This document shows, one piece after another, positions 9,202 through 25,341 of a DNA stretch of 64,000 nt. The translations under genes were made by a program, and so were the position numbers. A model generated the notes under the pieces. That model made no database searches. It was not told the DNA's origin and saw only the letters and a list, made by a program, of their open reading frames with translations. This DNA is from Thioalkalivibrio sp. ALJ12 (GTDB lineage Bacteria; Pseudomonadota; Gammaproteobacteria; Ectothiorhodospirales; Ectothiorhodospiraceae). Position 1 is the stretch's first letter, and every line of letters begins with the position of its first letter. The stretch lies in the NCBI RefSeq assembly GCF_000378305.1, contig NZ_KB899538.1, forward strand, positions 1,148,001-1,212,000, written 5' to 3'.

Positions 9202-9228
9202 GTGTCGATGCCAGGAACGAGGCGAAAC

Positions 9229-9675
9229 ATGGACTGCAACGGTTGCGAGTTTCATCCCGAACTGTTCTACGACGACGAATTTCAGATCTGGCTGCGCCGC
9301 GAGGATGACGACACCCTGACCGTGGGGATGACCGACCTTTCGCAGACCATCGCGGGAAAGATCATTCACGTACGAGTGCGTCGCCCCGGTACCCGGCGTC
9401 CGCCCGGGAAGCCGGTCGCCACGATCGAAAGCGGGAAATGGGCCGGTCCGATCCCGAACTTCATCGACTGCAAGATCGTCGAGGGCAACGAGGAGGTGCT
9501 GGAAAACCCAGTGCTGCTGAACTCGGATCCCTACAATGCGTGGATCGCGCGTGTCGAAGCCACCGACGGTGTGGATGTTGCGCTGGAGCAGTTTCTGACC
9601 GGCGACAAGGCCGAGGAGGGCTACTGCAAGCGCGCCAAAGATGAAGACATCGAGTGTCAGCGGAAACTGCGATAG
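9229..9675 (+). CDS. lbpA1: LbpA1, lipoate-binding protein of the sHdr system
   Basis: This 148-residue protein is like glycine-cleavage protein H but specialised for sulfur oxidation. Lipoate would be attached to the Lys of ESGKW (about residue 69). The lipoyl domain is recognisable from LTVGMTDLSQTIAGKI and the C-terminal helix. It also has cysteines near both ends (CNGC at 3-6 and two near the C-terminus), unusual for a GcvH-type carrier. ATG 9229 is preceded by GAGGCG; the open frame nine codons further up overlaps the terminator region. LbpA is thought to present sulfur-loaded dihydrolipoate to the sHdr complex. A paralogue lies two genes downstream. Confidence 0.9.
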   Translation: MDCNGCEFHPELFYDDEFQIWLRREDDDTLTVGMTDLSQTIAGKIIHVRVRRPGTRRPPGKPVATIESGKWAGPIPNFIDCKIVEGNEEVLENPVLLNSDPYNAWIARVEATDGVDVALEQFLTGDKAEEGYCKRAKDEDIECQRKLR

Positions 9676-10091: not shown

Positions 10092-10128
10092 TTTTCCCGC
10101 ATTATTACTTTCACGCTTGGAGGAAAAC

Positions 10129-10566
10129 ATGGGCGCAGTACGGGGTTGTGATATTCCGGAAGATCTGATGTACAACGTTGAAAACAACGTGTGGGTGCGC
10201 AAGGAAAGCGACGGTACCGCGACCGTGGGCCTGACCTCCTACGCGTGCTCGCTGGCCGGCACCATCGTGTCCTTCACTCCCAAGAAGGTCGGCAAGACCG
10301 TGAAGAAGGACAAGTCCTGCACCACCGTTGAATCTGGCAAGTGGGTGGGTCCGGCGAAGACCCCGGTGACCGGTGAAGTGACCGAAACCAACGACAAGGT
10401 TGCGGCCAACCCGGGTCTGATCAACGAAGACCCGTACGGCGAAGGCTGGCTGATCAAGCTGAAGCCTGAAGACTGGGACGGCGAAGTCGGCGACCTGAAG
10501 ACCGGTTCCGACGCCCTGGCGGCGTTCGAAGCCAAGATGGAAGCAGACGGTTTCGGCGGCTGCTAA
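10129..10566 (+). CDS. lbpA2: LbpA2, second lipoate-binding protein
   Basis: This 145-residue GcvH-like protein is dedicated to sHdr-type sulfur oxidation. The lipoylation motif is ESGKW (about residue 69), inside TTVESGKWVG, with TATVGLTSYACSLAG upstream. It differs clearly from LbpA1 in the N-terminus (GCDIPEDLMYN) and in the acidic C-terminal helix, so the pair is not a recent duplication. TTGGAGG lies just before ATG 10129, the best ribosome site in this stretch, which hints at high expression. A perfect terminator follows it. Confidence 0.92.
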   Translation: MGAVRGCDIPEDLMYNVENNVWVRKESDGTATVGLTSYACSLAGTIVSFTPKKVGKTVKKDKSCTTVESGKWVGPAKTPVTGEVTETNDKVAANPGLINEDPYGEGWLIKLKPEDWDGEVGDLKTGSDALAAFEAKMEADGFGGC

Positions 10567-10643: not shown

Positions 10644-11822
10644 ATGACGACCTGGAACGAGGTGATCCAGCGGGTCGAACCCCTGGAAGACATCCCTGTC
10701 GATGCGGCGTTGGTGAATGACCTTCAGCACAGCGTTCAGCGGGGCTCCGATCCCGGATCGGTGCATTTCTATACCCCGACGTTCAAGTCGTACCAGTCCA
10801 GTGAACTGGCGGACTGCGGCAAGAGCGCCTGGCCGGCGATGTCGATCACCGGTGGCGACTGCAAGCTCGCCTGTGACCATTGCAAGGCCAAGATCCTGGA
10901 CCCGATGATCCCGGTGCGCACGCCGGAGGACCTATGGGCTCAGGTGAACAACGTGATCGAGTCCGGTGCCCAGGGCATGCTCCTGACCGGTGGCTCGAAC
11001 CACCGTAACGAGGTCGAGTACGACCCGTACTATTCCACGATTCGTCGCATCAAGGACGAATTTCCCGAATTCCGCATCGCGCTGCATACGGCGCTGGTCG
11101 ACGACGACATCGCAACGTCGATGGAGCAGGCCGGTATCGACGCGGCGATGATGGACGTGATCGGCGCGCAGGACACGATCACGCAGGTCTACCATCTGCG
11201 CCGCAGCGTGGATGACTTCGAGCAGACACTCGAGAGCCTGGTGAACACCAACATGAAGGTGGTCCCGCACATCGTGATCGGTCTGCACTACGGCAAGCTG
11301 CTGGGTGAGTGGAACGCGCTGGAGATGCTCGCGCGCCACCTGCCCGATGCCGTGGTGCTGGTGGTCGTGATGCCGTTTTACGCCCCGGCGAGCCGCCCAT
11401 TCGAGACGCCGGATGTGCATGCGGTCGGGCGCTTCTTCCATGACGCCCGCGAGCGCCTGGGTGACACGCCGCTGCTGCTCGGCTGCGCGCGCCCACCAGG
11501 CGAGGCCAAGAGCCAGATCGATAGTTATGCGGTGATGGCCGGCCTGTCCGGTATTGCGCACCCGGCCGAGGGTGTGGTCGAACTGGCCGCGCGTCTGGGC
11601 AAGAAGGTCCGCGTGACTCCGGCCTGCTGCTCGATCGCCGTGGGCGACGAGGTGATGGCGGACGGGACCACGGTCGAGAGCGGTGTCGAGATCGACCTGG
11701 ACACGATCGTCGCCGAAGAGGCGCGGCGTCGCGAGCAGGAACGCAAGGCGCGCCAGGGCCTCGGCGGGATCCGCATCGTGACCGAGGGCAATGTCGCGGC
11801 CGGAGGCGGTTGCCATGTCTGA
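10644..11822 (+). CDS. lipS1: LipS1, radical-SAM lipoyl synthase subunit
   Basis: This 392-residue radical-SAM protein has the cluster motif CKLACDHC (about residues 73-80), spaced C-x3-C-x2-C, as used by LipS1. LipS1 and LipS2 together insert the two sulfur atoms into a protein-bound octanoyl group, doing the job of LipA by a different route. The C-terminal end is cysteine-containing (CHV) and Gly-rich. The start ATG 10644 has CCGGAG upstream. The 3' end overlaps the sLpl(AB) start by eight bases. The order lipS1-sLpl-lipT-lipS2 immediately behind lbpA matches the published sulfur-oxidiser lipoate pathway. Confidence 0.9.
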   Translation: MTTWNEVIQRVEPLEDIPVDAALVNDLQHSVQRGSDPGSVHFYTPTFKSYQSSELADCGKSAWPAMSITGGDCKLACDHCKAKILDPMIPVRTPEDLWAQVNNVIESGAQGMLLTGGSNHRNEVEYDPYYSTIRRIKDEFPEFRIALHTALVDDDIATSMEQAGIDAAMMDVIGAQDTITQVYHLRRSVDDFEQTLESLVNTNMKVVPHIVIGLHYGKLLGEWNALEMLARHLPDAVVLVVVMPFYAPASRPFETPDVHAVGRFFHDARERLGDTPLLLGCARPPGEAKSQIDSYAVMAGLSGIAHPAEGVVELAARLGKKVRVTPACCSIAVGDEVMADGTTVESGVEIDLDTIVAEEARRREQERKARQGLGGIRIVTEGNVAAGGGCHV

Positions 11823-12906
11823 GCGCGATCAGAAGACCCTGCGCGTCCTGGACACTGGCCTGCGCCCGGCGGCGGAGAACATGGCCTTCAACCGGGCCCT
11901 GCTCGAGTGCCACCAGGAGGGCGTGTCGCCGCACACCCTGCGTTTCCTGCAGTTCGAACCCTGCGCGCTGGTGGGTTTCCACCAAAATGTGGACCAGGAG
12001 ATCAGCACTGAGTACTGCAAGGAAAACGGTATTGCGATCCAGCGCCGGATTACCGGTGGCGGCGCGATCTATTTTGATTCCACCCAGCTGGGCTGGGAGC
12101 TGTACCTCGACAAGCGCTTTCTCGGGACGGCCGACATGGGGCAGATCGCCGCGCGCATCTGCAATGCCGCGGCCGCCGGGATCCGCACGCTGGGGGTCGA
12201 CGCGCAGTTCCGCCCGCGCAACGACATCGAGGTCGAAGGCCGCAAGATCTCCGGCACGGGTGGCGCATTCGATGGCGACTCGATCATGTATCAGGGCACG
12301 CTGCTGATCGAGTTCGATGTCGAGGACATGTTGCGCATTCTGCGGATTCCGGCCGAGAAGCTCTCCAACAAGGCGATCGAGTCGGCGCGCGATCGTGTGG
12401 TCAATCTGGCGACCCTGCTGGGCGAACGCCCGAATCTGGACCATGTGAAGGACGCGATTGCCAAGGCCTTTGCGGAAGAGTTCGCGGTTGAGCTGGCCCC
12501 CTTGGATCTGCTGCCCCAGGAGCAGAAGTCCTTCGAAGAGGCCCTGGCCGAGATCGACACCGAAGAATGGGTCTACCAGCGCAACCGTCCGGCCACCGAT
12601 GCCCCGCTGTTCGAGAGCATCTTCAAGTGTGACGGCGGGCTAATGCGCGTCGGTGTGGCCCTGGACCCGGAGCGCAAGCGCCTGAAGCAGCTCTGGCTGA
12701 CGGGCGACATCTTCGTGAAGCCCGCGCGTACCATCGCCGATCTGGAAGCGGCCCTGCGGGACACGCCGCAGGCCGAGATGGAAGAGCGTGTGCGCGCATT
12801 CTTTGCCGAGCGCGACGTCGAGATGCTGCAGTTGACGGTCGATGACGTAATCGCGGCGATTCAGTCGGCTCTGGCCATGGCCGAGACCGAGGAATCGGCG
12901 GGATGA
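11815..12906 (+). CDS. slplAB: sLpl(AB), lipoate-protein ligase for LbpA
   Basis: This 363-residue ligase of the LplA/BirA fold has the large catalytic domain followed by a small accessory domain, hence the AB name. Visible motifs are QRRITGGGAIYF (substrate site, about residue 73) and GRKISGTGG with the catalytic Lys (about residue 144). The C-terminal part (about 250-363) resembles the LplB accessory domain. It should activate octanoate or lipoate with ATP and attach it to the LbpA lysine. I start at ATG 11815; the eight codons upstream are within lipS1. Overlap with lipS1 implies coupled translation. Confidence 0.9.
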   Translation: MSERDQKTLRVLDTGLRPAAENMAFNRALLECHQEGVSPHTLRFLQFEPCALVGFHQNVDQEISTEYCKENGIAIQRRITGGGAIYFDSTQLGWELYLDKRFLGTADMGQIAARICNAAAAGIRTLGVDAQFRPRNDIEVEGRKISGTGGAFDGDSIMYQGTLLIEFDVEDMLRILRIPAEKLSNKAIESARDRVVNLATLLGERPNLDHVKDAIAKAFAEEFAVELAPLDLLPQEQKSFEEALAEIDTEEWVYQRNRPATDAPLFESIFKCDGGLMRVGVALDPERKRLKQLWLTGDIFVKPARTIADLEAALRDTPQAEMEERVRAFFAERDVEMLQLTVDDVIAAIQSALAMAETEESAG

Positions 12907-12943
12907 AGGTCCTTTGCGCGGTATTTGCCGGGAGGCAGCAGTA

Positions 12944-14026
12944 ATGCTCCCCGAAAAGGTCGATGTCCTGGTGGTCGGGCTGGGGCCGGGTGGCGCCTCG
13001 GCGGCGCGCGTGTGCGCGGCGGCCGGGCTGTCCGTGCTGGCGGTCGAGCGCAACAAGGCCTTCGGCGAGCCGGTGCAGTGTGCCGAGTTCATCCCGAACC
13101 CGATGGGCGCCTATGCCAAGGCGGATGGAGTCCTGCTGCAGCGCATCGACTCGATGCAGAGCTTCCTGCCCTCCGGGGCCGTGGAACACTCCGATTTCCC
13201 TGGCTTGATGGTGGACCGCGGCGAGTTCGACCGCGCGATCATCCAGGCGGCGAAGGCCAACGGCGCGCAGCTGGTGACTTCGACCCCGCTGCAGCGTGTG
13301 GATGCCGAGCGGCATGTGGCGACCGTCAAGCACCAGGGGCAGGAACACGCGGTCGAGTACCGTGTTCTGATCGCCGCCGATGGCCCGCATTCCCCGGTGG
13401 CCGAGTCCCTGGGGCTGCCCGCGCTGCCGGTCGTGCAGACCCGGCAGTACACGGTGCCGCTCAAAAAGCCGTATACCGCGACCGATGTCTGGCTGTCGGA
13501 CGACTACCCGGGTGGATACGCCTGGCTGTTCCCCAAGGGCGAATGGGCGAACCTGGGGCTGGGTGCGGACAAGCGCATCGACAACGACATGAAGACGCCG
13601 CTGGAATCCCTGCATGCCCAGCTCGTCGAGCAGGGGCTGCTGGGCGAGGAGATCCGTCACCGTACGGGTGGCGCGATCCCGGTCGGCGGCCTGCGGGATT
13701 CGCTGTACGACGGCGATGTCCTGTTCGTGGGCGATGCCGGTGGATTTACCCATCCGATTACCGGGGCCGGGATTGCCGCGGCGGTGGTGTCGGGCGAGGC
13801 GGCGGGCGAGGCCGCGATTGCGCATCTCGAGGGTGACGCCGAGGCTTTCGACGATTACGATGAAGAGATGCGCGATCAGTACGGTCCGGCCCTGGAGCGC
13901 GCCTGCAAGCGCCGCGCGTTCCTGAATGAACACTGGCGTACGCCGCGGGCGCAGGAAGACGCCACGCAGCGCCGCGGATGGATTGCTTTTTCCGAGTATT
14001 TCAACGATGGTGACCAGGCCGCGTAG
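12944..14026 (+). CDS. lipT: LipT, FAD-dependent oxidoreductase of the lipoate-assembly cluster
   Basis: This 360-residue flavoprotein of the geranylgeranyl-reductase type has the Rossmann motif VVGLGPGGASAARVCAAAG (from about residue 8) and the FAD-binding GDAGGFTHPITGAGI (about residues 264-278). LipT occurs with lipS1/lipS2/sLpl and has been proposed to act in redox handling of the lipoyl cofactor; its exact reaction is uncertain. ATG 12944 follows GGGAGG; an open frame ten codons longer lacks this site. It is 37 bases behind sLpl(AB) and 50 before lipS2. Confidence 0.87.
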   Translation: MLPEKVDVLVVGLGPGGASAARVCAAAGLSVLAVERNKAFGEPVQCAEFIPNPMGAYAKADGVLLQRIDSMQSFLPSGAVEHSDFPGLMVDRGEFDRAIIQAAKANGAQLVTSTPLQRVDAERHVATVKHQGQEHAVEYRVLIAADGPHSPVAESLGLPALPVVQTRQYTVPLKKPYTATDVWLSDDYPGGYAWLFPKGEWANLGLGADKRIDNDMKTPLESLHAQLVEQGLLGEEIRHRTGGAIPVGGLRDSLYDGDVLFVGDAGGFTHPITGAGIAAAVVSGEAAGEAAIAHLEGDAEAFDDYDEEMRDQYGPALERACKRRAFLNEHWRTPRAQEDATQRRGWIAFSEYFNDGDQAA

Positions 14027-14076: not shown

Positions 14077-15249
14077 ATGAGTGTAAGTGCAGAGGAGATG
14101 GTCGCGCCGATCAACTTTTACCGGCCCGATTATCACATCAAGACCCCGGACATGCGTTCGCCGGAGTACGTGCAGATGTCCACGGCGGCTGCGATCACGC
14201 TGGGCCTGGTGCCGGGCACTATGCACCGTACGTCCTGCACCCACTGCCTGAACCTGCTGGTCACCTACCCGGAAGGCTGCCGTGCGAACTGCTCCTATTG
14301 CGGTCTGGCGCGCCACCGCGAGGAATCGCGTGACTACGCCGATCGCAACTTCATCCGCGTCGACTGGCCGACCGCCAAGTACGACGAGGTGATCGAGCGC
14401 GTGAAGAATCACGCCGACGCCGGGCAGTTCGAGCGCATGTGCATCTCCATGATCACGCACCCGAACTCCGACGCCGACACCGTCGAGCTACTCGAACGCT
14501 GGGTCGCCGAGGTCAACCACATCCCGGTGTCGATCCTGTCCAACCCGACCACCATGAGCTACGAAGATCTCCAGCTCCTGCGGGACAAGGGCGCCGATAT
14601 CTTCACTGTCGCGCTGGACGCGGTCACGCCGGAGATCTTCGAGCGCACCCGTGGCAAGGCGGTTGAGAGCCCTCACAGCTGGGACAAGTACTGGCAGTCC
14701 ATCGAGTGGGCCGCCGAGATCTTCGGGCCGGAGAAGTTCGGCGCCCACCTGATCTGCGGCATGGGCGAGACCGAGGAAGAGATCCTGCAGGTCTGCCAGC
14801 GCATCCGCGACCTGGGCGGCCACAACCACATGTTCGCCTTCTTCCCGGAAGAGGGCTCGCTGATGGAAGACTGGAACCCGGTGCCGCGCGACCAGTGGCG
14901 GCGCGTGCAGCTGGGCCGCTTCGTGATCGACTACGCCGGTGGCCGCATCGACGACATGAAGTTCAACGCCGATGGTCAGGTGGTGGATTTCGGCCTGCCG
15001 CAGTCCGAGGTCGACGAACTGATCGCCTCCGGCAAGCCGTTCCAGACCTCCGGCTGCCCTGGCAAGTCGGATGAGGAAGTCTCGGCCTGCAACCGTCCCT
15101 ACGGCGATTCCAGCCCGACGGACATCCTGTCCTTCCCGTTTGCCCTCAATTCGACGGACGTCGGGTTCGTCCAGCGGCAGATGGCCGGGGAGGATGTCGG
15201 CACCTTCGACTTCGACGCCGACGAGGCCGAGGACGAAAAGTCCGCATAA
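14077..15249 (+). CDS. lipS2: LipS2, radical-SAM lipoyl synthase subunit
   Basis: This 390-residue radical-SAM protein has the cluster motif CRANCSYCGLARHR (about residues 68-81), spaced C-x3-C-x2-C, preceded by another Cys pair, CTHC (about 52-55). A further Cys pair near residue 327 (SGCPGKS and SACNRP) may ligate an auxiliary cluster that donates sulfur, as in other lipoyl synthases. It should work with LipS1 on octanoyl-LbpA. CTGGAGG before ATG 14077 fixes the start. The C-terminus is strongly acidic. A terminator-like hairpin ends the operon. Confidence 0.9.
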   Translation: MSVSAEEMVAPINFYRPDYHIKTPDMRSPEYVQMSTAAAITLGLVPGTMHRTSCTHCLNLLVTYPEGCRANCSYCGLARHREESRDYADRNFIRVDWPTAKYDEVIERVKNHADAGQFERMCISMITHPNSDADTVELLERWVAEVNHIPVSILSNPTTMSYEDLQLLRDKGADIFTVALDAVTPEIFERTRGKAVESPHSWDKYWQSIEWAAEIFGPEKFGAHLICGMGETEEEILQVCQRIRDLGGHNHMFAFFPEEGSLMEDWNPVPRDQWRRVQLGRFVIDYAGGRIDDMKFNADGQVVDFGLPQSEVDELIASGKPFQTSGCPGKSDEEVSACNRPYGDSSPTDILSFPFALNSTDVGFVQRQMAGEDVGTFDFDADEAEDEKSA

Positions 15250-15289: not shown

Positions 15290-15497
15290 GCACGTCAGGG
15301 GGGTTGATTAGACGTTTTGAATATTCAGGTTTCGAGCGGGGATATTTCAGGGGCCCCGTCGAAAGAACTCCGGGGGGATGGGTCGTCCACCCGCGAGCGG
15401 TCACTGCACCACATAACTGGACCGGCGGCATACAAGGGGGCCGCTGGTAACCGGGGTGCCGGGCCATACAACAAGAAGACCACCAAAGGAGAACAAC

Positions 15498-16817
15498 ATG
15501 GAAGCACGCATCATTCGCCGCAGTCTGGTGACGGTCGCGGTCGGCCTTGCAATGGGCAGCGCCGGCGTCGCCAATGCCACCAACGGCTATTTCGCGCACG
15601 GCTATGGCACCAAGGCCAAGGGCATGGGTGGGGTCGGCATGGCCATCTCCCAGGACGCCTATGCCCCCGGCATCAACCCCGCCGGTATCGCCGGCATGGA
15701 GACCCGCTTCGACGCATCGGTCGCCTACTTCCGCCCGGAACGGTCGTTCGAGGCGAGCCAGCCAACGCAGATGGGGGGCATTAATCCTGGAAGCGTAGAT
15801 AGCGACAGCGAGAACTTTTTCGTTCCGTCGCTCGGTTTCGTGCAGCAGATCGATGAGAGCCGTTCGTGGGGTATTGCTCTTCTCGGTAATGGTGGGATGA
15901 ACACCGATTACCCCGCCTATGGGCGCGATTTTTGCCAGATGATGGGGCAAGGAAACGAGGGTGGAGCATTTTGTAGTGGTACGGCCGGAGTGAATCTGGA
16001 GCAGCTAGCGATCATCCCGACGTATGCGCAGACATTCGCCGATGGGCGAGTCAGCGTCGGTTTCAGCCCCATCATCAGCTACCAACGTTTTAGCGCCGAG
16101 GGCTTGGATGCGTTTGCGGATCCAGCGTTCTCCGCGGATCACGAGAACATGACCAGCGGGCGAACCGATTCTAGTTGGGGGTATGGTGCCCAGATCGGTT
16201 TTCAGGCGGAACTGGCGGAGGGAGCTCGTGTTGGTGCGAGTTATCGTTCCAAGATCCGCGCAGGTGACTTCGATAGGTACGCAGGCCTGTTTGTGAACGG
16301 TGGCGAGTTCGATGTCCCATCAACCTATGGCCTCGGATTTTCGCTGGATGTGACACCGAATGTGACCCTGTCGGCGGATTACCAAAAGATCCGCTATTCG
16401 GAGATTGATGCGATTGCCAATCCATCCGCCAACATTGGTGGCGCGATGATGGGTGATCCTGATTCACGGTTCGGTGCATCCAATGGTCCCGGATTTGGTT
16501 GGGATGACGTGAACATCTTCAAGTTCGGGGCTCAGATCGACGGGGGTAATGGCTGGACCTGGCGCGTCGGCTATAACCGTGGCGAAAATCCCATCAGCTC
16601 GGACGATGTTGCGCTGAATATCCTTGCGCCCGCTGTGATGACGGATCACTTTACCGCGGGCTTCACCCGAGAGTTTGGCCAGCACGAGATCAATTTCGCT
16701 GCGATGTATGCACCGCGGCAAAGGGTGAGGGGGCAGAACGTCTTTGATCCGGGTCAGGACGTCGAGATCGAGATGCGGCAGTACGAGCTCGAGATCGGGT
16801 ACGCGTACCGCTTCTGA
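15498..16817 (+). CDS. FadL/OmpP1-family outer-membrane transport protein
   Basis: This 439-residue beta-barrel belongs to the FadL/TodX family, which moves hydrophobic compounds across the outer membrane. The signal peptide (about residues 1-24) ends in SAGVANA, followed by the family signature TNGYFAHGYGTKAKGMGG and INPAGIAG. It ends in ...ELEIGYAYRF, a typical barrel C-terminus with terminal Phe. AAAGGAG fixes ATG 15498. Base composition changes abruptly near 15780: the first 280 bases match the GC-rich neighbours, the rest is clearly lower in third-position GC, suggesting a mosaic gene. Its cargo is unknown; fatty acids or hydrophobic sulfur compounds are both possible, the second only from context. 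Confidence 0.88.
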   Translation: MEARIIRRSLVTVAVGLAMGSAGVANATNGYFAHGYGTKAKGMGGVGMAISQDAYAPGINPAGIAGMETRFDASVAYFRPERSFEASQPTQMGGINPGSVDSDSENFFVPSLGFVQQIDESRSWGIALLGNGGMNTDYPAYGRDFCQMMGQGNEGGAFCSGTAGVNLEQLAIIPTYAQTFADGRVSVGFSPIISYQRFSAEGLDAFADPAFSADHENMTSGRTDSSWGYGAQIGFQAELAEGARVGASYRSKIRAGDFDRYAGLFVNGGEFDVPSTYGLGFSLDVTPNVTLSADYQKIRYSEIDAIANPSANIGGAMMGDPDSRFGASNGPGFGWDDVNIFKFGAQIDGGNGWTWRVGYNRGENPISSDDVALNILAPAVMTDHFTAGFTREFGQHEINFAAMYAPRQRVRGQNVFDPGQDVEIEMRQYELEIGYAYRF

Positions 16818-17030: not shown

Positions 17031-18002
17031 ATGCGAGCAATCCACGCATTGCGCGGAGGCATTCGCGTGCCTGCCGTTCTCGCGTTCTTCGGCGCGTGTC
17101 TGCTGACCCTTGGCGCGGCCGCCACGGCGCTGGCGGACGATGTCTATCGGCCCCTGGTACTGGCCTACACCACGTCCGGCTCCGATGTCAGCGGTGAGGT
17201 GGAGACGGTCCGCGAGCGACTGGAAGAGGCCGATTTCCAGACCCTCGGCGAGTACCCGGTCAGTGACGACCGGCACGTGATCGTGGTGACCCACGACGAC
17301 CTGCTGGCGGTGGCGGGCTCCCAGGATCGGGCGGCGTACATCGCACCTATACGCGTCGCCGTGACCGCGACCAACGGCGGGGTTCAGGTCAGCTACAACA
17401 ACCTCGAGTACTTTCGACATGCCTATCGCATTGATGACTCGGTGAACGCCGTGAGTTCGCGGCTGGCGGAGGTGCTGGGCGACGAGCAGCACTTCGGGTC
17501 GGAGGACGGCATGACCCCGCGGGAGCTGCAGCGTTACCGCTATACGTTTGGTATGGAGCGCTTCAACGCCCCGTATGACCTGGGTAGCCACGGCTCGCGG
17601 AGCGCCGCCCTGGAAGAGCTGGATGCCGGTCTGGGCGATCGGCGTGGGGGCGTGTCGGAGATCTACCGGCTGGATATCCCGGGAACGGACGCTACGCTGA
17701 TCGGCGTGGCGATTCGGGCCGATGATGGCGCCGATTCCGAGGCCACCGACCTCAACACCCTGGAGACGATCGACGTGCGCGAGCTTCGCCACACCGCCTA
17801 CGTGCCGTACGAGATCCTGGTAGAGGGGGGCGATATCGAGGCGCTGCACATGCGTTTCCGTGCGGCGCTGCACTGGCCGGACCTGCGCATGCTCGGCGAT
17901 CACAGCTTCATGCAGCTTCGCCGCGTCCCGGGTGCGCTGGAGGATACCCTTCGCGAGGTGGCCGGCTTTGAGGAGCCCGCAGACGACGGTTTCGACTGGT
18001 AG
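17031..18002 (+). CDS. Exported protein of unknown function (323 aa)
   Basis: This 323-residue protein has a clear signal peptide (MRAIHALRGGIRVPAVLAFF..., cleavage near ALA-DDVY, about residue 36) and no later membrane segment, so it is probably periplasmic. The mature part has two halves. The first (YRPLVLAYTTSGSDV...VRERLEEADFQTLGEYP) resembles the small alpha/beta fold of DUF302-like proteins, but I cannot confirm this. There are no cysteines in the mature protein. AAAGGAG precedes ATG 17031. It lies between the FadL-like gene and a good terminator. No function can be given. Confidence 0.75.
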   Translation: MRAIHALRGGIRVPAVLAFFGACLLTLGAAATALADDVYRPLVLAYTTSGSDVSGEVETVRERLEEADFQTLGEYPVSDDRHVIVVTHDDLLAVAGSQDRAAYIAPIRVAVTATNGGVQVSYNNLEYFRHAYRIDDSVNAVSSRLAEVLGDEQHFGSEDGMTPRELQRYRYTFGMERFNAPYDLGSHGSRSAALEELDAGLGDRRGGVSEIYRLDIPGTDATLIGVAIRADDGADSEATDLNTLETIDVRELRHTAYVPYEILVEGGDIEALHMRFRAALHWPDLRMLGDHSFMQLRRVPGALEDTLREVAGFEEPADDGFDW

Positions 18003-18060
18003 AAGCATAACGCCAGGGATGGCGAACGAACCCAGCTAATAGCCCAGGGTTCCTCTCAAG

Positions 18061-18085
18061 AACCCCGGTCCGCCGGGGTTTTTTT
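18061..18085 (+). terminator. Intrinsic terminator after the exported protein gene
   Basis: A perfect 8-bp stem (18061-18068 with 18073-18080) with a four-base loop ends in seven T (18079-18085). It separates the 323-residue exported protein gene from the next transcription unit. Confidence 0.85.
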
Positions 18086-18144
18086 ACGGCCGGGGGCTGG
18101 ACTTGTTTATGCTCCCGGTTCATTCGCGGCAGGACGCACGCCCC

Positions 18145-18564
18145 ATGAAATCGATGAAGATCGCCAACATCGGCGAGATCCGTAACGAACTCAACAAGTA
18201 CAAGAAGGGCAAGAAGCTCGATATTCACCAGTTCAACCAGGTCGCGCGCCTGGCCTGGCTGGGCAAGATCGTGATGCAGCCCCTGGATCTCGAGGACCCC
18301 GATTGCCAGTCGTTCCTGGTGTATATCCAGGAGCCGGAAGAGCTGGCCGCGCATTTCCTGAACACCGATCAGGAGCTGACCGGCGGGATCCATATCATCG
18401 ACGGCGAGCAGGCCATGGCCATGGTCGAGATCATGCGCGGGGGTGTCGAGGAACGTGCCAAGCTGTACGAGGACCTCTCGCGCAGCGACTTCTACTTCCG
18501 CTACTTCTACAAGCCCGGCAAGGACGACGAGGCCCCGTCCGAGCAGGACAAACCCGAGGACTGA
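18145..18564 (+). CDS. Small cytoplasmic protein of unknown function (139 aa)
   Basis: I do not recognise this protein. It has 139 residues, a basic N-terminal half (ELNKYKKGKKLDIHQFNQVARLAWLGK) and an acidic C-terminal tail ending in EQDKPED. It has one Cys, no signal and no membrane segment. The start could be ATG 18145 or ATG 18154; I use the first because AGGACG lies at a suitable distance. It is the first gene of a short unit and ends three bases before the TTG start of a lipoate-ligase-like gene in the same frame, so a read-through fusion would be possible in principle. Confidence 0.68.
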   Translation: MKSMKIANIGEIRNELNKYKKGKKLDIHQFNQVARLAWLGKIVMQPLDLEDPDCQSFLVYIQEPEELAAHFLNTDQELTGGIHIIDGEQAMAMVEIMRGGVEERAKLYEDLSRSDFYFRYFYKPGKDDEAPSEQDKPED

Positions 18565-18567
18565 TCC

Positions 18568-19614
18568 TTGGTCGCATCCACGGTCACCCCGGAATGGATT
18601 GATGCCGGGGCCCGCTCCGCGGAAGAACTCCACGCCCTCTATACCGGTCTGGCGAGCAGCACGCCGCCGGAGTCGCCGTTGCGCGTGCTGTGGGTGCATT
18701 CGCGAGAGGCGCACATCTCCGTGGGCGCCAGCCAGGACCCGGCCATGGATCTGGACCTGGTCGCCTGCAAGGCCAATAGCGTGCCGGTCGTGCGCCGCCC
18801 GCTCGGGGGCGGCTCCGTCTGGGTGGATGCCGACCAGGCCTGTTTCTTCCTGATTCAGCCCCGCCAGGTCCTCGCCCGTGGCCATCGCCACCTGTTCGCG
18901 CTGGGGCTGGGCATCGCGATGGATGTACTGCGCGAGCTGGGGCTGGAAGGCGTCGAGGCGCGCGGTCAGGACGTCTGGGTTCAGGGGCGCAAGATCATGG
19001 GTACTGGTGCGGCCACGCTGAACGAGGGTTGTGTGTTCGGCGCTAGCTTCCTGCGCCGCTTCCCGGTGGAACGCTTTCTATCGTGTGTAAATGCCCCAAG
19101 CGACGGCTACCGCGAATGGCTGCGCCCGGCACTGGAAGAGGGCATGACCGATTGTGCGGAGCAGTGCCCCGAGGCGGCGCCGACGCCGGAACGTCTGGAG
19201 GCGGCCCTGAGCGAGGTGCTGGAGCGCCGCTTCAGTACCCCCGCGCGGTGTTACCGTCCGAGTTCCGCAGAATGGGACGAGTGGCTGGCGGCCGGGCGCG
19301 AGGAACTCGCCGACCTGGCCGACAGCCAGGGCGGGCCGGCCGTGCGCGACGGTATCCGTGTGAATCGGGAGAACCATGTCTTCGAGACGCGCGGCCACTG
19401 TGGCCGCCTGCGCTTGCATATCGCCGGGACACACATTGCACGCATTTGGTGCGAGGACCCGAGCGTGGATCGCGTACTGCGCGAGACCCTGGTGGGCGAG
19501 TCGCCGGAGCGCCTGCGTGTGCGCTCGCGCCTGAACGGCCAGCTCGACGCGGTGATCGTCGACGAGGTCAGCGCACGCATCGACGGTCTCTACCGAGGGA
19601 TCGCCGCCGCCTGA
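18568..19614 (+). CDS. Second lipoate-protein-ligase-like protein
   Basis: This 348-residue protein belongs to the biotin/lipoate A/B ligase family. The motifs VVRRPLGGGSVWVD (substrate loop, about residue 72) and GRKIMGTGAATLNEG with the catalytic-type Lys (about residue 139) are intact. It also has several Cys in its second half, which is unusual. The only upstream option is TTG 18568, because an in-frame stop of the preceding gene ends at 18564; GAGGA lies at the right distance. It is distinct from sLpl(AB) at 11.8 kb in sequence and architecture. Its substrate is unknown: octanoyl or lipoyl transfer to LbpA or to a 2-oxoacid dehydrogenase are both possible. Confidence 0.85.
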   Translation: MVASTVTPEWIDAGARSAEELHALYTGLASSTPPESPLRVLWVHSREAHISVGASQDPAMDLDLVACKANSVPVVRRPLGGGSVWVDADQACFFLIQPRQVLARGHRHLFALGLGIAMDVLRELGLEGVEARGQDVWVQGRKIMGTGAATLNEGCVFGASFLRRFPVERFLSCVNAPSDGYREWLRPALEEGMTDCAEQCPEAAPTPERLEAALSEVLERRFSTPARCYRPSSAEWDEWLAAGREELADLADSQGGPAVRDGIRVNRENHVFETRGHCGRLRLHIAGTHIARIWCEDPSVDRVLRETLVGESPERLRVRSRLNGQLDAVIVDEVSARIDGLYRGIAAA

Positions 19615-19668
19615 TCCTGCTTTGCACGCCGCTGGATACTTCCCCAAAAAGCTTTACGAGGCGAACCG

Positions 19669-20055
19669 ATGTCCGAACCGACCATTCAGCGCCGGCTGGA
19701 GAAACGCCTGATCCTGATGAGCCAGGATCAGGCGATGATCGAGCAGATTCGCACCGCATTGCCGGATGACTGGCATCTGCACCCGGTGACCGATCTGGAA
19801 GAATTGGGCGCCTGGAACGAGGTGCTGCTCTACCGCTTCCTGCTGCTGGATCTGGACGAGATCGAGGTGTTCGACCCGCTGGACGTAATCCGCATCCTGC
19901 GCATGGAGTATCAGATCAACCTGCCCGTGTTCTGTTTTGGCGGGGACCAGGACATCCGCGACGAGATGCGCCTGGCGCGGGCCGATCGCTTCTTCAATCG
20001 CGAGGAGATGGTCGAAAAGCTCCCCGAGTTCATCCGCATGTACGACTGGGGCTGA
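19669..20055 (+). CDS. Degenerate response-regulator receiver-like protein
   Basis: This 128-residue stand-alone protein has the pattern of a CheY-type receiver: a hydrophobic beta-1 (RLILMSQDQ), a central LLLDLDEIEVFD at the place of the phospho-acceptor strand, and LPVFCFGGDQD as a later strand. The acidic pair expected at the end of beta-1 is missing (SQDQ) and the conserved Lys near the C-terminus is replaced. Phosphorylation is therefore doubtful and it may act by binding only. It is the third gene of the short unit that starts at 18145. A bidirectional terminator follows. Confidence 0.65.
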   Translation: MSEPTIQRRLEKRLILMSQDQAMIEQIRTALPDDWHLHPVTDLEELGAWNEVLLYRFLLLDLDEIEVFDPLDVIRILRMEYQINLPVFCFGGDQDIRDEMRLARADRFFNREEMVEKLPEFIRMYDWG

Positions 20056-20063
20056 GCGCCCCA

Positions 20064-20102
20064 TCAAAAAGGCCCCGGGCGTTAGCCACGGGGCCTTTTT
20101 GA
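20064..20102. terminator. Bidirectional intrinsic terminator between convergent genes
   Basis: A perfect 13-bp stem (20064-20076 with 20090-20102) contains a run of five A on the left arm and five T on the right arm. It serves both the plus-strand receiver-like gene and the minus-strand 105-residue gene. Confidence 0.88.
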
Positions 20103-20145
20103 TTCGCGGATCCGCATGATGCGGATCGCGGGGCATCGCACGGCC

Positions 20146-20463
20146 TTAGCCGATCCAGGCGTGCTCCAGCACGTCGATGCGGATCTTCTCGTGGTAGGTC
20201 TCGCCGTTGGCCTCGATCACCAGGTCGCCCACGCGGGTGCCGGCGGTATCAAAGCTGAATTTGCAGTCGAAGGTGCCCGGCAGGGACACGCTGCTCTCGC
20301 ACAGGGCCTCGCCTTCCACCGAGAACTTGCACTGGGCGGTGCCGGAGCCGTTCAGCAGGGCCTGCACCCGGAATTCCTCGTTGATCGGGCGCCGGTAGAC
20401 TTCCGGATCGCGATTCGGGTTGTACTGCAGGTTGTTCAGCTTGACGAGTTTGACAAGTTTCAT
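20146..20463 (-). CDS. Small protein of unknown function (105 aa)
   Basis: I do not recognise this protein. It starts MKLVKLVKLNNLQYNP at ATG 20463, where AGAGGA is the ribosome site; the frame remains open 16 codons further upstream without support. The 105 residues are rich in beta-strand-forming segments (FRVQALLNGSGTAQCKFSVEG, GTFDCKFSFDTAG, GDLVIEANGETYHEKIRI) and carry three Cys. This suggests a small immunoglobulin-like beta sandwich, but there is no signal peptide. A candidate promoter sits 105-130 bases upstream and a terminator follows, so it is probably a single-gene unit. Confidence 0.65.
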   Translation of the reverse strand: MKLVKLVKLNNLQYNPNRDPEVYRRPINEEFRVQALLNGSGTAQCKFSVEGEALCESSVSLPGTFDCKFSFDTAGTRVGDLVIEANGETYHEKIRIDVLEHAWIG

Positions 20464-20567
20464 ACCGGGTCCTCTATTGACGCGCTGAATCCGAGTTGCG
20501 GGCGCCTTCACCTGCCCGATCCCGTACCGGGAAGGGCGTTTGGTTCATGGAAGTGCGCAGGTTCGAT

Positions 20568-21569: not shown

Positions 21570-24124
21570 GCGACCAGGCCCGCAACAGCGGCGGGGCGAA
21601 CACGGAAGCCGAAGATCTCGTCGAGATCGAGGAGATTCTCCAGCATCTGGAGGACATCAGCTTCGTCGCCCACCGCGACACCAAGGAGGCCCTCCCGGCC
21701 ATCCGCGCGTTCGGTGCCGCCACCGCGCGGCGCTGGATCGAGACCGTGCGCGAGCTGTTCTTCCACGACCGCGAGGCCGGCAAGAGCTTCATGCGCAATT
21801 CCGCGCGGCTCGCGGAGCACATGCAGACGGTGGACCTGTGGCTGGACCAGGCCGCCCGCTTCAAGCAGTGGGTCAACTCCGCCGATGCCCTGGAAGGTTT
21901 CATGGCTCAGGCCGATCGCGTGTACGACGCCTGGGGCGAGGCCGGCGAGCGCGAGTGGGCCGAGATCGGCCTGCGCTGGTGCGAACGCAGCCTGCCCGAT
22001 GCCCGCGCCTATTTCGAGACGCCGTTCGACAAGCTCTCCGCCGGCCGAGGTATCGAGGGCCTGCGCGCGCTGATCGAGCCGGCCGAGACGCTGTTCGACG
22101 AACGCGGCCTGACCCTGGATGCCTATCTTGAGGGTGCCCCGATCGCCCGCAACCTGGTCGGCGACCAGGGCCTGCTGTCCTGGGCCCGGCGCGGAGCGGA
22201 CCTGCTGAAGGCCGGGCGCTCGCGCGGTGAGGCCTATTTTCGCCTGGAGAGCGACGAGAGCCTGAAGCTGCTCCTGGAGGCGCTGCCGGGCTTTCGCCCG
22301 CGCATGCACGGGCGCTTCCTGCGCCTGGTGCTGCTGGCCTGGCTGGATGCCGATATCCCGCTGGCCGATTCCAGCTGGAAGCCGGGCGAGGGCCGCCCGA
22401 TGCTCGAGACCGACGGCCGGCGGCTGTTTATGCCGGCGGTGATGGACTCGCGCGAGGAGGCGATCGTCGCCACCCAGCACGCGGCCGCGCATCTGGCCTT
22501 CGATACGTATGCGCAGTCCGATGTCGAGCGGCTGTTCGAGCGTGCCGGGGTCGAGCACCCGCCGCTGGATGACCGCTCGCGCATCACCTGGCGCCCGCTG
22601 TTCGCGCCATTCGAGGCGCGCATGTTCCGCTTCCAGGTGCTGTTCGACCTGGCCGAGGACCTGCGCGTGAACGCGCGCCTGGCCCCGCGCATCCCGAACT
22701 TCCTGCCGCGCCTGGTGGCGCTGGCCGAGGACCATGAGCGCCCGGAGGGCGCGGCCGGCGTCTACTTCGATTTCGCGCTGAAGGCCCACCAGGCCCTGCT
22801 GCGCGACGAGGCGCAGGACCCGCGTCTGGCGCGCGTGCTGGAGCCGGACCCGGATGTGGTCACCGCCTGGGCCATCGGCGAGGAGCTGTTCGCCGACGAG
22901 GCCTTCCCCGAGATCACCATCGAGGAGCGCGCCGAGGCCTATCTGCCCGGGCTGTCGCTGAACCAGTCGCTGCCGGTGTATCCGCAGCGGAAACGCGACG
23001 GCAGCCTGGCCGACTTCCGCGACCACGAGGCGCACGACGAACACAAGTTCGAGCGCGAGAAGCAGGAAGAGCAGCCGCAGCAGGCCCCGGAGCAGGCGCA
23101 GAAAGACCCGGACGCCGACATCCAGACCCCGCAGCAGGAGACCTCTGGCACCGGCGGGCGCATCGGCACGGGTATCCCGCAGCCGGCCCAGGTGGCCAAG
23201 CGCGCCGCTCCCTACACCCCGAAGAAGGACGGCATCCCGTATCCCGAGTGGGACTACCGCGAGCAGCGCTATATCTCCGACTGGGTGAATCTCTACGAGC
23301 GCGTGCTGGACGACGAAAACCCGGAGCTGGCGGCCACGATCCTGTCGGAGAACGCCGACACCCTGAAACGCCTGACCCGCGGTCTCGAGATGCAGCGTCC
23401 GATGCGCCTGGCGCCGCAGCGCAAGCAGATGGACGGCGACGAGCTCGACACCGAGGCAGTAATCGACTTCATCGCCGACAAGAAGGCGGGGCTGTCGCCG
23501 AAGGCCTTCATCTACCGCCGCCGTGCGGTGCAGCACCGTGATACCGGCGTCATGATGCTGGCGGACATGTCCACCTCGATCATGGCGCGCCACCCGGGCG
23601 GGCAGGGCAAGATCGTCGACCGCGTGCGCGAGGGGATGATGCTGTTCGCCGAGGCGATCGAGAAGGTCGGCGATCCCTACGCGATCTCCGGCTTCGCCTC
23701 CAAGCAGCGCGACCAGGTCAACTACTACTGGCTGAAGGATTTCAACGAGGACCTGAACGACACCGTCCGCGCCCGCATCGCCGGGGTCTCCGGGCGCCTG
23801 GCCTCGCGTATGGGCGCGGGCATCCGCCACTCGCTGGAGGCATTCAAGCGCTGTTCGGCCCAGCGCCGGCTGCTGCTGATCCTGTCCGACGGCCGCCCGG
23901 CCGACTACGACGACGGCGGTGACCAGCGCTACCTGCACGAGGACACGCGCATGGCGATGAAGGAGGCGGTGGACGCCGGCGTGCACCCGTTCTGCATCAC
24001 CCTGGACCCGTCCGGTTCGGAATACCTGCCGGCGATCTTCGGTCCCGGTCACTACACCATCATCGACCACGTGGACGAGCTGCCGCGCCGTCTGCCCGAG
24101 ATCTATCTGAGGCTGCGCCAGTGA
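21566..24124 (+). CDS. cbbO: CbbO/NorD-type von Willebrand factor A protein
   Basis: This 852-residue protein is the adaptor partner of the upstream AAA+ ATPase. The long N-terminal region is helical and Arg/Glu-rich. A low-complexity charged linker (about residues 490-535, rich in Gln, Glu and Ala) precedes the C-terminal vWA domain, whose metal-ion-dependent adhesion site begins DMSTS (about residue 660). The vWA domain binds an acidic residue of the client while the ATPase pulls. The length fits CbbO. GTG 21566 overlaps the cbbQ stop, and its own stop overlaps the GTG of the next gene, so all three look translationally coupled. Confidence 0.85.
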
Positions 24125-25341
24125 GTGCTACCCCCGAAGCCATCGACGCCTCCACCGGCGCTACGGCTCGGCACCCGGAGCCGGCCCGCCGTCATGCCAC
24201 GCTGCTGCATGCCCCGCGCTATCGCGGGCACAGCTACGGCGACAACCACCCGCTCGGGATCCCGCGCGTCTCGCTGACCATCGACCTGATCGAGGCCTAT
24301 GACGCGATCACGCCGCAGGAGATGGCCGTATCGCGCAAGGCACAGCCGGCCGAGCTCGAGTGGTTCCACACCCGCGAGTACGTGGCCGCGATGCAGCGCG
24401 CCGAGGCGTTGGGCAAGGTCTTCCAGCGCTACCGCGACCGCCACAACATCGGCAACTTCGAGAACCCGTTCTTCGCCGGGTTCTTCGCGACCCCGGCGAC
24501 CGCCACCTGGGGCTCCATCCAGGGCGCCGAGGTGGTGCTGGACGGGCGTATGGCCTTCAACCCGGCCGGTGGCATGCACCACGCCGCCCCCGACCAGGCC
24601 CGTGGATTCTGCTACTTCAACGACCCGGCGCTGGCGATCCTGCGCCTGCGTCAGGCCGGGCAGCGCGTGCTCTATCTGGATATCGACGCCCACCATGGCG
24701 ACGGGGTCGAGGCCGCGTTCAGCGACGACCCGGACGTGCTCACCGTCTCCCTGCACATGGACACCGAGTACGGCTACCCCTTCGAGGGCGGGCGCATCGA
24801 GGACACCGGACCGCTTGGCAACGCCGTGAACCTGCCGCTGCCCAAGGAGACCAACGACAGCGAGTTTCGCGCCGCCTTCGCGGCCGTCTGGGAGGCCGTG
24901 CGCACCCGCTGGCAGCCGGATGCGGTCGTCGTTCAGGCCGGTACCGATGCGCTGCTGCCGGACCCGCTCGGCAAGTTCGGCATCTCCACCCAGTGCTTCC
25001 TCGCCTGCGTCGACGACGTGATCGAGACCAGCCCGCGGCACGCCGACGGCACACCGAGGCTGCTGGTCCTGGGCGGTGGCGGCTATCACCCGCTGGCGCT
25101 GGCACGCTGCTGGACCGGGGTCTGGGCCCTGCTGACCGGTCGCGAGCTCCCCGCTGCGATCCCGGAGGCCGGCCAGGCCCTGCTGCGCGAGGTTGACTGG
25201 GACATGGACGAAGAAGAGGAATGGTACGAGTCCCTCTTTACCTCCCGTCTCGATGCGGATCGCGCCGGTCCGGTGCGCGACGAACTGCGCAATCGCCTTG
25301 AACGGCTGCTGGCAGGGCACCCGTTGTTCAGTTGCTCGTAG
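24121..25341 (+). CDS. Histone-deacetylase-family amidohydrolase
   Basis: This 406-residue zinc amidohydrolase belongs to the arginase/deacetylase superfamily (AcuC, acetylpolyamine amidohydrolase, HDAC). Key parts are visible: GGMHHA (about residue 150, the paired His), DIDAHHGDGVEAAF (about 183-196, zinc Asp and His) and LVLGGGGYHP near residue 315. It would remove acetyl groups from protein lysine or small amines. Translation starts at GTG 24121, overlapping the cbbO-like stop (GTGA), which suggests a common function with the CbbQ/O pair or at least shared expression. The real substrate cannot be told from sequence. Confidence 0.87.
   Translation: MSATPEAIDASTGATARHPEPARRHATLLHAPRYRGHSYGDNHPLGIPRVSLTIDLIEAYDAITPQEMAVSRKAQPAELEWFHTREYVAAMQRAEALGKVFQRYRDRHNIGNFENPFFAGFFATPATATWGSIQGAEVVLDGRMAFNPAGGMHHAAPDQARGFCYFNDPALAILRLRQAGQRVLYLDIDAHHGDGVEAAFSDDPDVLTVSLHMDTEYGYPFEGGRIEDTGPLGNAVNLPLPKETNDSEFRAAFAAVWEAVRTRWQPDAVVVQAGTDALLPDPLGKFGISTQCFLACVDDVIETSPRHADGTPRLLVLGGGGYHPLALARCWTGVWALLTGRELPAAIPEAGQALLREVDWDMDEEEEWYESLFTSRLDADRAGPVRDELRNRLERLLAGHPLFSCS

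Follow-up and report, generated by a model that had tools for sequence, protein, structure and literature searches.

The window analysed here, a 64,000-nucleotide stretch of the genome of Thioalkalivibrio sp. ALJ12, comes from a soda-lake bacterium and contains three consecutive genes, labeled small, lig2 and rec, which adjoin sulfur-oxidation genes (Table 1). All three ORFs are on the same strand, with 3 nt separating small from lig2 and 54 nt separating lig2 from rec. On the 5' side of small, the gene run comprises sHdr, LbpA1, a DsrE-type gene, LbpA2, LipS1, sLpl(AB), LipT, LipS2, and the genes for a FadL-like and a DUF302-like protein; cbbQ, cbbO and an HDAC-like gene are found on the 3' side of the unit. 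The original prediction, made from this sequence without database searches, described three genes with a terminator on each side. This description is accurate, as the ORFs are present with the boundaries listed in Table 1, and a terminator is supported on either side by folding energy. A simple consensus terminator scan listed neither hairpin, and both emerged on folding.

Two neighbours of the unit are recurrent. The convergent position of soxZl (a label only) beside rec is kept in most loci, regardless of the presence of cbbQO, and a Pfam search with soxZl returned chance-level matches only. The HDAC-like deacylase, for its part, stays near the unit even where cbbQ and cbbO are lacking, as seen in Acidiferrobacter-like loci.

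Table 1. Coordinates of the unit, its flanking hairpins and related genes. Positions are those of the window, except for LbpA3.
Feature	Position	Strand	Description
LbpA1 lipoate-binding protein	9202..9675	+	Candidate acceptor; tracks with small and rec
LbpA2 lipoate-binding protein	10117..10566	+	Served as sHdr marker
LipS1 lipoyl synthase	10644..11822	+	Context gene
sLpl(AB)	11791..12906	+	Described LbpA ligase; LplB-like C-terminus (LplB 51 bits)
LipT-type geranylgeranyl-reductase-family protein	12914..14026	+	Context gene
LipS2 lipoyl synthase	14077..15249	+	Context gene
FadL-like outer-membrane protein	15456-16817	+	Travels with small, rec and lip genes in several families
DUF302-like exported protein	17031-18002	+	Travels with small, rec and lip genes in several families
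Upstream intrinsic terminator	18058..18086	+	11-bp stem, 4-nt loop, U tract; -19.8 kcal/mol, z -2.1
small	18145..18564	+	139 aa, soluble alpha/beta protein, family unknown; 49 homologues compared
lig2	18568..19614	+	Divergent LplA-family protein, TTG start, PF21948 74 bits
rec	19669..20055	+	Predicted stand-alone pseudo-receiver
Bidirectional terminator between rec and convergent soxZl	20063..20103	both	-33.3/-32.9 kcal/mol, z -6.6/-5.4
soxZl	20146..20511	-	121 aa, convergent to rec, no Pfam family
HDAC/AcuC-like deacylase	24121-25341	+	DIDAHHGDG motif intact
LbpA3	G000 contig C3:105280-105735 (L152:7278-7733)	-	LbpA-type protein

Features of the lig2, small and rec proteins

The lig2 protein is a member of the LplA superfamily, matching PF21948 with 74.4 bits (curated cut-off 27), and is one of three PF21948 proteins in the whole source genome, together with sLpl and a LipB. 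It does not reach the equivalog cut-off of TIGR00545 (280 bits), with a score of 51 bits; this is also the case for sLpl (168 bits) and for lig3 (148 bits), a related ligase named here that is absent from the source genome. The catalytic domain of lig2 spans approximately residues 36–213, and its C-terminal accessory domain is eroded: neither PF10437 nor NF053749 detected an LplB domain in lig2, whereas this domain was detected in sLpl (NF053749, 51 bits) and in lig3 (NF053749, 57 bits; PF10437, 30 bits). Its TTG start codon, proposed from the sequence, is plausible, since a TTG is found at the same position in most Thioalkalivibrio relatives, as well as in T. sulfidiphilus and T. denitrificans.

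I then compared 23 lig2 sequences to 26 other ligases, a set made up of sLpl and lig3 proteins together with E. coli LplA and a single close relative of the latter. lig2 retains R77, GGG80–82, G125, D135, K142 and G145, and among these R77, G80–82, D135 and K142 are invariant across all 23 lig2 sequences. In contrast, four positions that are invariant in the 26 other ligases are altered: N134, the Asn of the RND motif, is retained in 2/23 lig2 (Q in 14/23) and G159, the Gly of the (x)G(T/S) motif, in 3/23 (A in 16/23), K180 is replaced by G in 19/23, and W250 is mostly lost. A further position, R76, is Q in 7/23 lig2. The catalytic motifs had been described as intact, which stands for R77, the GGG, D135, K142 and G145, but not for N134, G159, K180, W250 and the LplB domain. 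Because of these lost residues and the lack of a detectable LplB domain, the activity of lig2 is uncertain, and by its residue pattern lig2 is a consistently altered enzyme rather than a plain second ligase copy. It also diverges fast, with 35–40% identity between families, vs about 80% for LbpA2.

The original prediction also pointed to unusual extra cysteines in lig2. These are not conserved, and the sole invariant cysteine, C67, is equally invariant in sLpl and lig3; accordingly, a search for a nucleophile of the LipM/LipL type yielded no lig2-specific invariant cysteine. A role of the extra cysteines as catalytic residues or metal ligands was ruled out, as they are unconserved beyond part of the genus.

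In phylogenetic trees, lig2 forms a single clade (support 100/99), distinct from the sLpl clade (97/99), and lig2 and lig3 together also form one clade (100/100). The nearest relatives of lig2 are the lig3-type proteins of two genomes that possess small and rec without an inserted ligase (G340 and G236), followed by the other lig3. A split with a support of 98/88 (87/93 in a second tree with fewer distant rows) separates lig2, lig3 and sLpl, as a group, from E. coli LplA and LipB, although long branches make this deep placement provisional. lig2 therefore does not group with ordinary LplA or LipB, but has its own clade beside the unlinked paralog lig3, in the part of the tree that holds sLpl(AB). 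An origin of lig2 by recent duplication of sLpl was considered, and is ruled out by the tree.

These relationships are reflected in the individual comparisons. lig2 shares with sLpl(AB) (TK90_0642) the PF21948 fold, the RRxxGGG/D/K motifs, the neighbourhood and the side of the tree, but the two are only 25–27% identical and belong to separate clades; sLpl retains the Asn of the RND motif, the Gly, the Lys and the LplB-like C-terminus that lig2 has lost, and lies in the lipS1-lipT-lipS2 operon, whereas lig2 lies between small and rec. The closest relative of lig2 is lig3 (hhalign E 2.5e-50), found in the sample in sHdr genomes only; it differs from lig2 in retaining the residues lost in the latter as well as the LplB domain (PF10437, 30 bits), and in being located apart from small and rec. 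E. coli LplA has the same fold family and core motifs, but is outside the lig2/lig3/sLpl group and, unlike lig2, possesses Lip_prot_lig_C. The LipB/LipM octanoyltransferases belong to the same superfamily and, like lig2, do not have an LplB domain, but lig2 has no conserved cysteine of its own and is outside the LipB clade. Loci encoding lig3 were identified in many sHdr genomes (L111–L119, L039, L046), and in one of these (L113) the lig3 gene adjoins a fumarase gene.

The small protein matches no Pfam or NCBIfam family, with chance-level Pfam matches only, in agreement with its initial description as a small unknown protein. Its invariant residues include N14, L16, Y19, G22, K24, I27 and F30, and its AlphaFold model is that of a confident fold (pLDDT 86.9). 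A Foldseek search with this model gave no significant match in the PDB or in a viral set, and the best VIA-align match (Z 4.3; 4.1 Å over 73 residues) is inside the background of unrelated structures.

For rec, the AlphaFold model (pLDDT 93.6) is predicted to adopt the (beta-alpha)5 receiver fold, with 3lte as the top PDB match in Foldseek (TM 0.72, probability 1.0), while no Pfam model matches it beyond chance level. The phospho-Asp position at the end of beta3 corresponds to D61, as assigned by eye from the predicted strand, and is invariant in 53 sequences. The other receiver sites are replaced, namely the acidic pair following beta1 by S/T-x-D, the Thr/Ser following beta4 by G91 and the Lys following beta5 by R111. 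Judged by these substitutions, rec is a pseudo-receiver, in line with the degenerate receiver domain that had been proposed. It shares its fold and the phospho-Asp position with receiver and pseudo-receiver domains such as CheY-like proteins and the KaiA N-terminal domain, but differs from these in the acidic pair, Thr and Lys, in being stand-alone, and in having no Pfam match.

Conservation and distribution of the unit

An orthologue of lig2 is present in 28 of the 30 genus genomes examined, counting the source genome, and the other two (G003 and G006) show only the paralog lig3. The small-lig2-rec order is kept in nearly all of these genomes and also in T. sulfidiphilus, in T. denitrificans and in additional families, and since it is intact in nearly all genus members examined, the arrangement is not due to chance. 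lig2 proper is found in 17 genomes of the class sample described below, spanning ten families, and is always located between small and rec. The order of the three genes is thus conserved in at least 10 gammaproteobacterial families. In Ectothiorhodospira and Acidiferrobacter-like genomes, however, no ligase separates small from rec, and the two are direct neighbours located beside sHdr-lip genes and usually soxZl. As small and rec occur without lig2 in many genomes, these two genes are the core and lig2 is the variable member. The proposal that the three genes form one unit is therefore borne out by the conserved order and the flanking terminators, but an inseparable three-gene unit is ruled out by these common pairs.

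A complete Thioalkalivibrio genome, G012, departs from this arrangement (locus L043, G012:C1:752000-768000): lig2 is kept, LbpA1 and small are lost, and no rec is found beside lig2. The same locus also shows a broken match to the DsrE-type gene, and offers a natural test of the interdependence among the parts.

In order to evaluate co-occurrence, a class sample of 369 gammaproteobacterial genomes, drawn evenly, was searched with cut-offs of E<=1e-32 for LbpA and E<=1e-50 for a profile of the lig2/lig3 clade. This identified LbpA in 36 genomes, compared with 21 for rec and 24 for the lig2/lig3 clade. All 24/24 lig2/lig3 genomes carry sHdr-lipoate genes, and no carrier of the ligase was found among genomes lacking these. 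All genomes with rec or the ligase have LbpA, with the exception of two drafts (G236 and G380) in which sLpl lies at a contig end, and both rec and lig2/lig3 are absent from the remaining 331 genomes of the sample. The only sHdr-negative genome of the source organism's family (G030) likewise has no such ligase. Fisher tests of the association with sHdr gave p values of about 1e-24 to 1e-28, which overstate significance as the genomes are related, although at least 10 families are involved. The association of the unit with sHdr/LbpA is strong.

A search for the three-gene order beside sHdr loci had been suggested. This order was found in sHdr genomes only, but some of the trios are far from sHdr: the distance is 200 kb in G065 and 750 kb in G401, and the trio is on a different contig in G172, G196, G285 and G307. 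The association is therefore not mere linkage. In many genomes the closest stable neighbours of small-lig2-rec are soxZl, cbbQ, cbbO and the HDAC-like gene, rather than sHdr.

A correspondence was also observed with LbpA1, which is found in 20/38 sHdr genomes. rec is present in 19/20 LbpA1 genomes vs 2/18 sHdr genomes without LbpA1 (both cut drafts), and lig2/lig3 in 20/20 vs 5/18, counting the divergent ligase of G252. The small and rec genes thus track genomes bearing this second LbpA, and almost only those. Individual genomes illustrate this pattern: of two congeners, G201 has LbpA1, LbpA3 and the trio and G311 has none of these, and G038 and G040 have no LbpA1, small or lig2, while LbpA1 and the ligase are both present in G031, G034 and G036. 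Since LbpA1 systems lacking lig2/lig3 exist (G032, G042, G045, G046), the unit is accessory and not essential.

LbpA3 is a third LbpA-type protein of the source genome, with an ESGKWAG motif and 44% identity to LbpA1, and is encoded away from the window, unlinked to sHdr. Its neighbours in many sHdr genomes are thioredoxin-like membrane, COX1-like and hemerythrin-like proteins (the last label was assigned by eye). In the Acidiferrobacter-like genome G252, LbpA3 and the lig2/lig3-clade ligase are close to each other, separated by a Crp/Fnr-type gene (L159:7107-9393). LbpA3 is present in 16/17 lig2 genomes of the class sample, which suggested an obligatory partner of lig2; this was weakened by the absence of LbpA3 from about half of the lig2-bearing Thioalkalivibrio (e.g. 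G010, G013 and G031), so that LbpA3 can be no more than one acceptor among several.

Possible roles in LbpA acylation

The reading that I tentatively favor, based on these gene patterns, treats the unit as an accessory module of the sHdr system: lig2 would handle the lipoyl or octanoyl groups of LbpA1-type acceptors, and small and rec would be its partners. The core consists of small and the pseudo-receiver, with a diverged lig2 between them in most lineages. lig2 would act on LbpA1 and, in genomes that have it, on the unlinked LbpA3, giving a second route in addition to sLpl(AB)-LipS1/S2, and small and rec would be non-enzymatic partners, either gating lig2 or substituting for its eroded LplB domain. 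In this reading the unit would be an sHdr-specific module for the acylation or quality control of LbpA1-type proteins; lig2 may also be regulatory.

The main rival to this accessory-module reading is somewhat unlikely, and holds that lig2 is a pseudo-ligase that binds lipoate, octanoate, the adenylate or the lipoyl domain but does not ligate, and that senses or regulates LbpA status together with rec and small. The loss of N134, G159, K180, W250 and LplB in most lig2 sequences is consistent with this, as are the fast divergence relative to LbpA2 and the partnership with a rec protein that, without the acidic pair, Thr and Lys, would be phosphorylation-incompetent. However, the invariance of the catalytic Lys, the second Arg, the GGG and the Asp in 23/23 lig2 is not expected if catalysis were dispensable. 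lig2 could also be an ATP-independent acyl or lipoyl transferase, acting in a LipM-/LipL-like relay, for example between LbpA2 and LbpA1 or LbpA3. The loss of LplB is the change tied to conversion of a ligase to an octanoyltransferase in Tanabe 2023 (PMC10332631), and the sister acceptors LbpA1 and LbpA3 are present alongside lig2; but with C67 common to sLpl and lig3, lig2 has no conserved cysteine of its own to act as the nucleophile, and such a relay is quite unlikely.

The remaining two alternatives attribute the sHdr association to other causes. The recurrence of the trio beside soxZl-cbbQ-cbbO-hdac, also at loci with no sHdr nearby (e.g. L036, L097, L102, L104), suggests that the unit might be affiliated with soxZl, the HDAC-like protein and the CbbQ-CbbO Rubisco activase, in CO2 fixation or protein deacylation, and that the sHdr link is only apparent, autotrophs having both. 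This is very doubtful, as Ectothiorhodospira and Acidiferrobacter-like genomes have small and rec beside sHdr-lip genes without cbbQO in the flanks read, and as small and rec follow the presence or absence of LbpA1. That lig2 is an ordinary salvage ligase, supplying lipoate to 2-oxoacid dehydrogenases or GcvH, and keeps sHdr company through shared ancestry, is the least probable of the explanations considered here. Membership of PF21948 and the accessory, non-universal occurrence of lig2 among sHdr genomes are compatible with salvage, but lig2 is not grouped with E. coli LplA, falls far below the TIGR00545 cut-off (51 vs 280 bits) and has no LplB, and it is found in no sHdr-negative genome of the class sample, although GcvH-type proteins occur in most genomes.

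A broader proposal extends the accessory-module reading, with the HDAC-like deacylase as an eraser that could oppose lig2. In this proposal, which is speculative and on balance unlikely, the unit would be a third bacterial lipoylation or lipoyl-remodelling machine for LbpA1/LbpA3, made of an LplA-family enzyme devoid of LplB, with small and the pseudo-receiver as a switch, and possibly opposed by the deacylase. If true, the acylation of this sulfur carrier would be reversible and regulated. The involvement of lipoate in sHdr sulfur oxidation is itself a recent finding, with one described maturation route, sLpl(AB)-LipS1/S2, and a second LplA-family enzyme restricted to sHdr genomes, tied to two uncharacterised proteins and tracking the second LbpA implies a further layer in LbpA maturation or acyl state. 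The reason why a bacterium has two or three LbpA proteins thereby becomes a directly testable question, and three unannotated families (small, rec and soxZl) gain names and boundaries.

The set characterised to date, according to the available parts of these reports, consists of TK90_0642 (sLpl) and lipS1-sLpl-lipT-lipS2 (Cao 2018, PMC6067878; Tanabe 2023, PMC10332631), and a second ligase is not mentioned in the available passages of either. In the former, LbpA1 and LbpA2 are both in vitro substrates of sLpl, which makes a second ligase unnecessary; sLpl reportedly fails to rescue an E. coli lipB lplA double mutant. The initial proposal, made from the sequence, of a unit linked to sHdr/LbpA and lying beyond the described pathway agrees with the confinement of the ligase to sHdr genomes, with its own clade, and with the characterisation of only sLpl(AB) in those passages; as an alternative acylation system for LbpA, the unit is a candidate only. 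The locus tag TK90_0648, which from the gene order is probably the window's ligase, matches the Cao 2018 record (PMC6067878) twice, outside of the main text. This mention probably sits in the peer-review exchange of that article, and it is therefore probable that its authors or reviewers have seen the TK90_0648 ligase.
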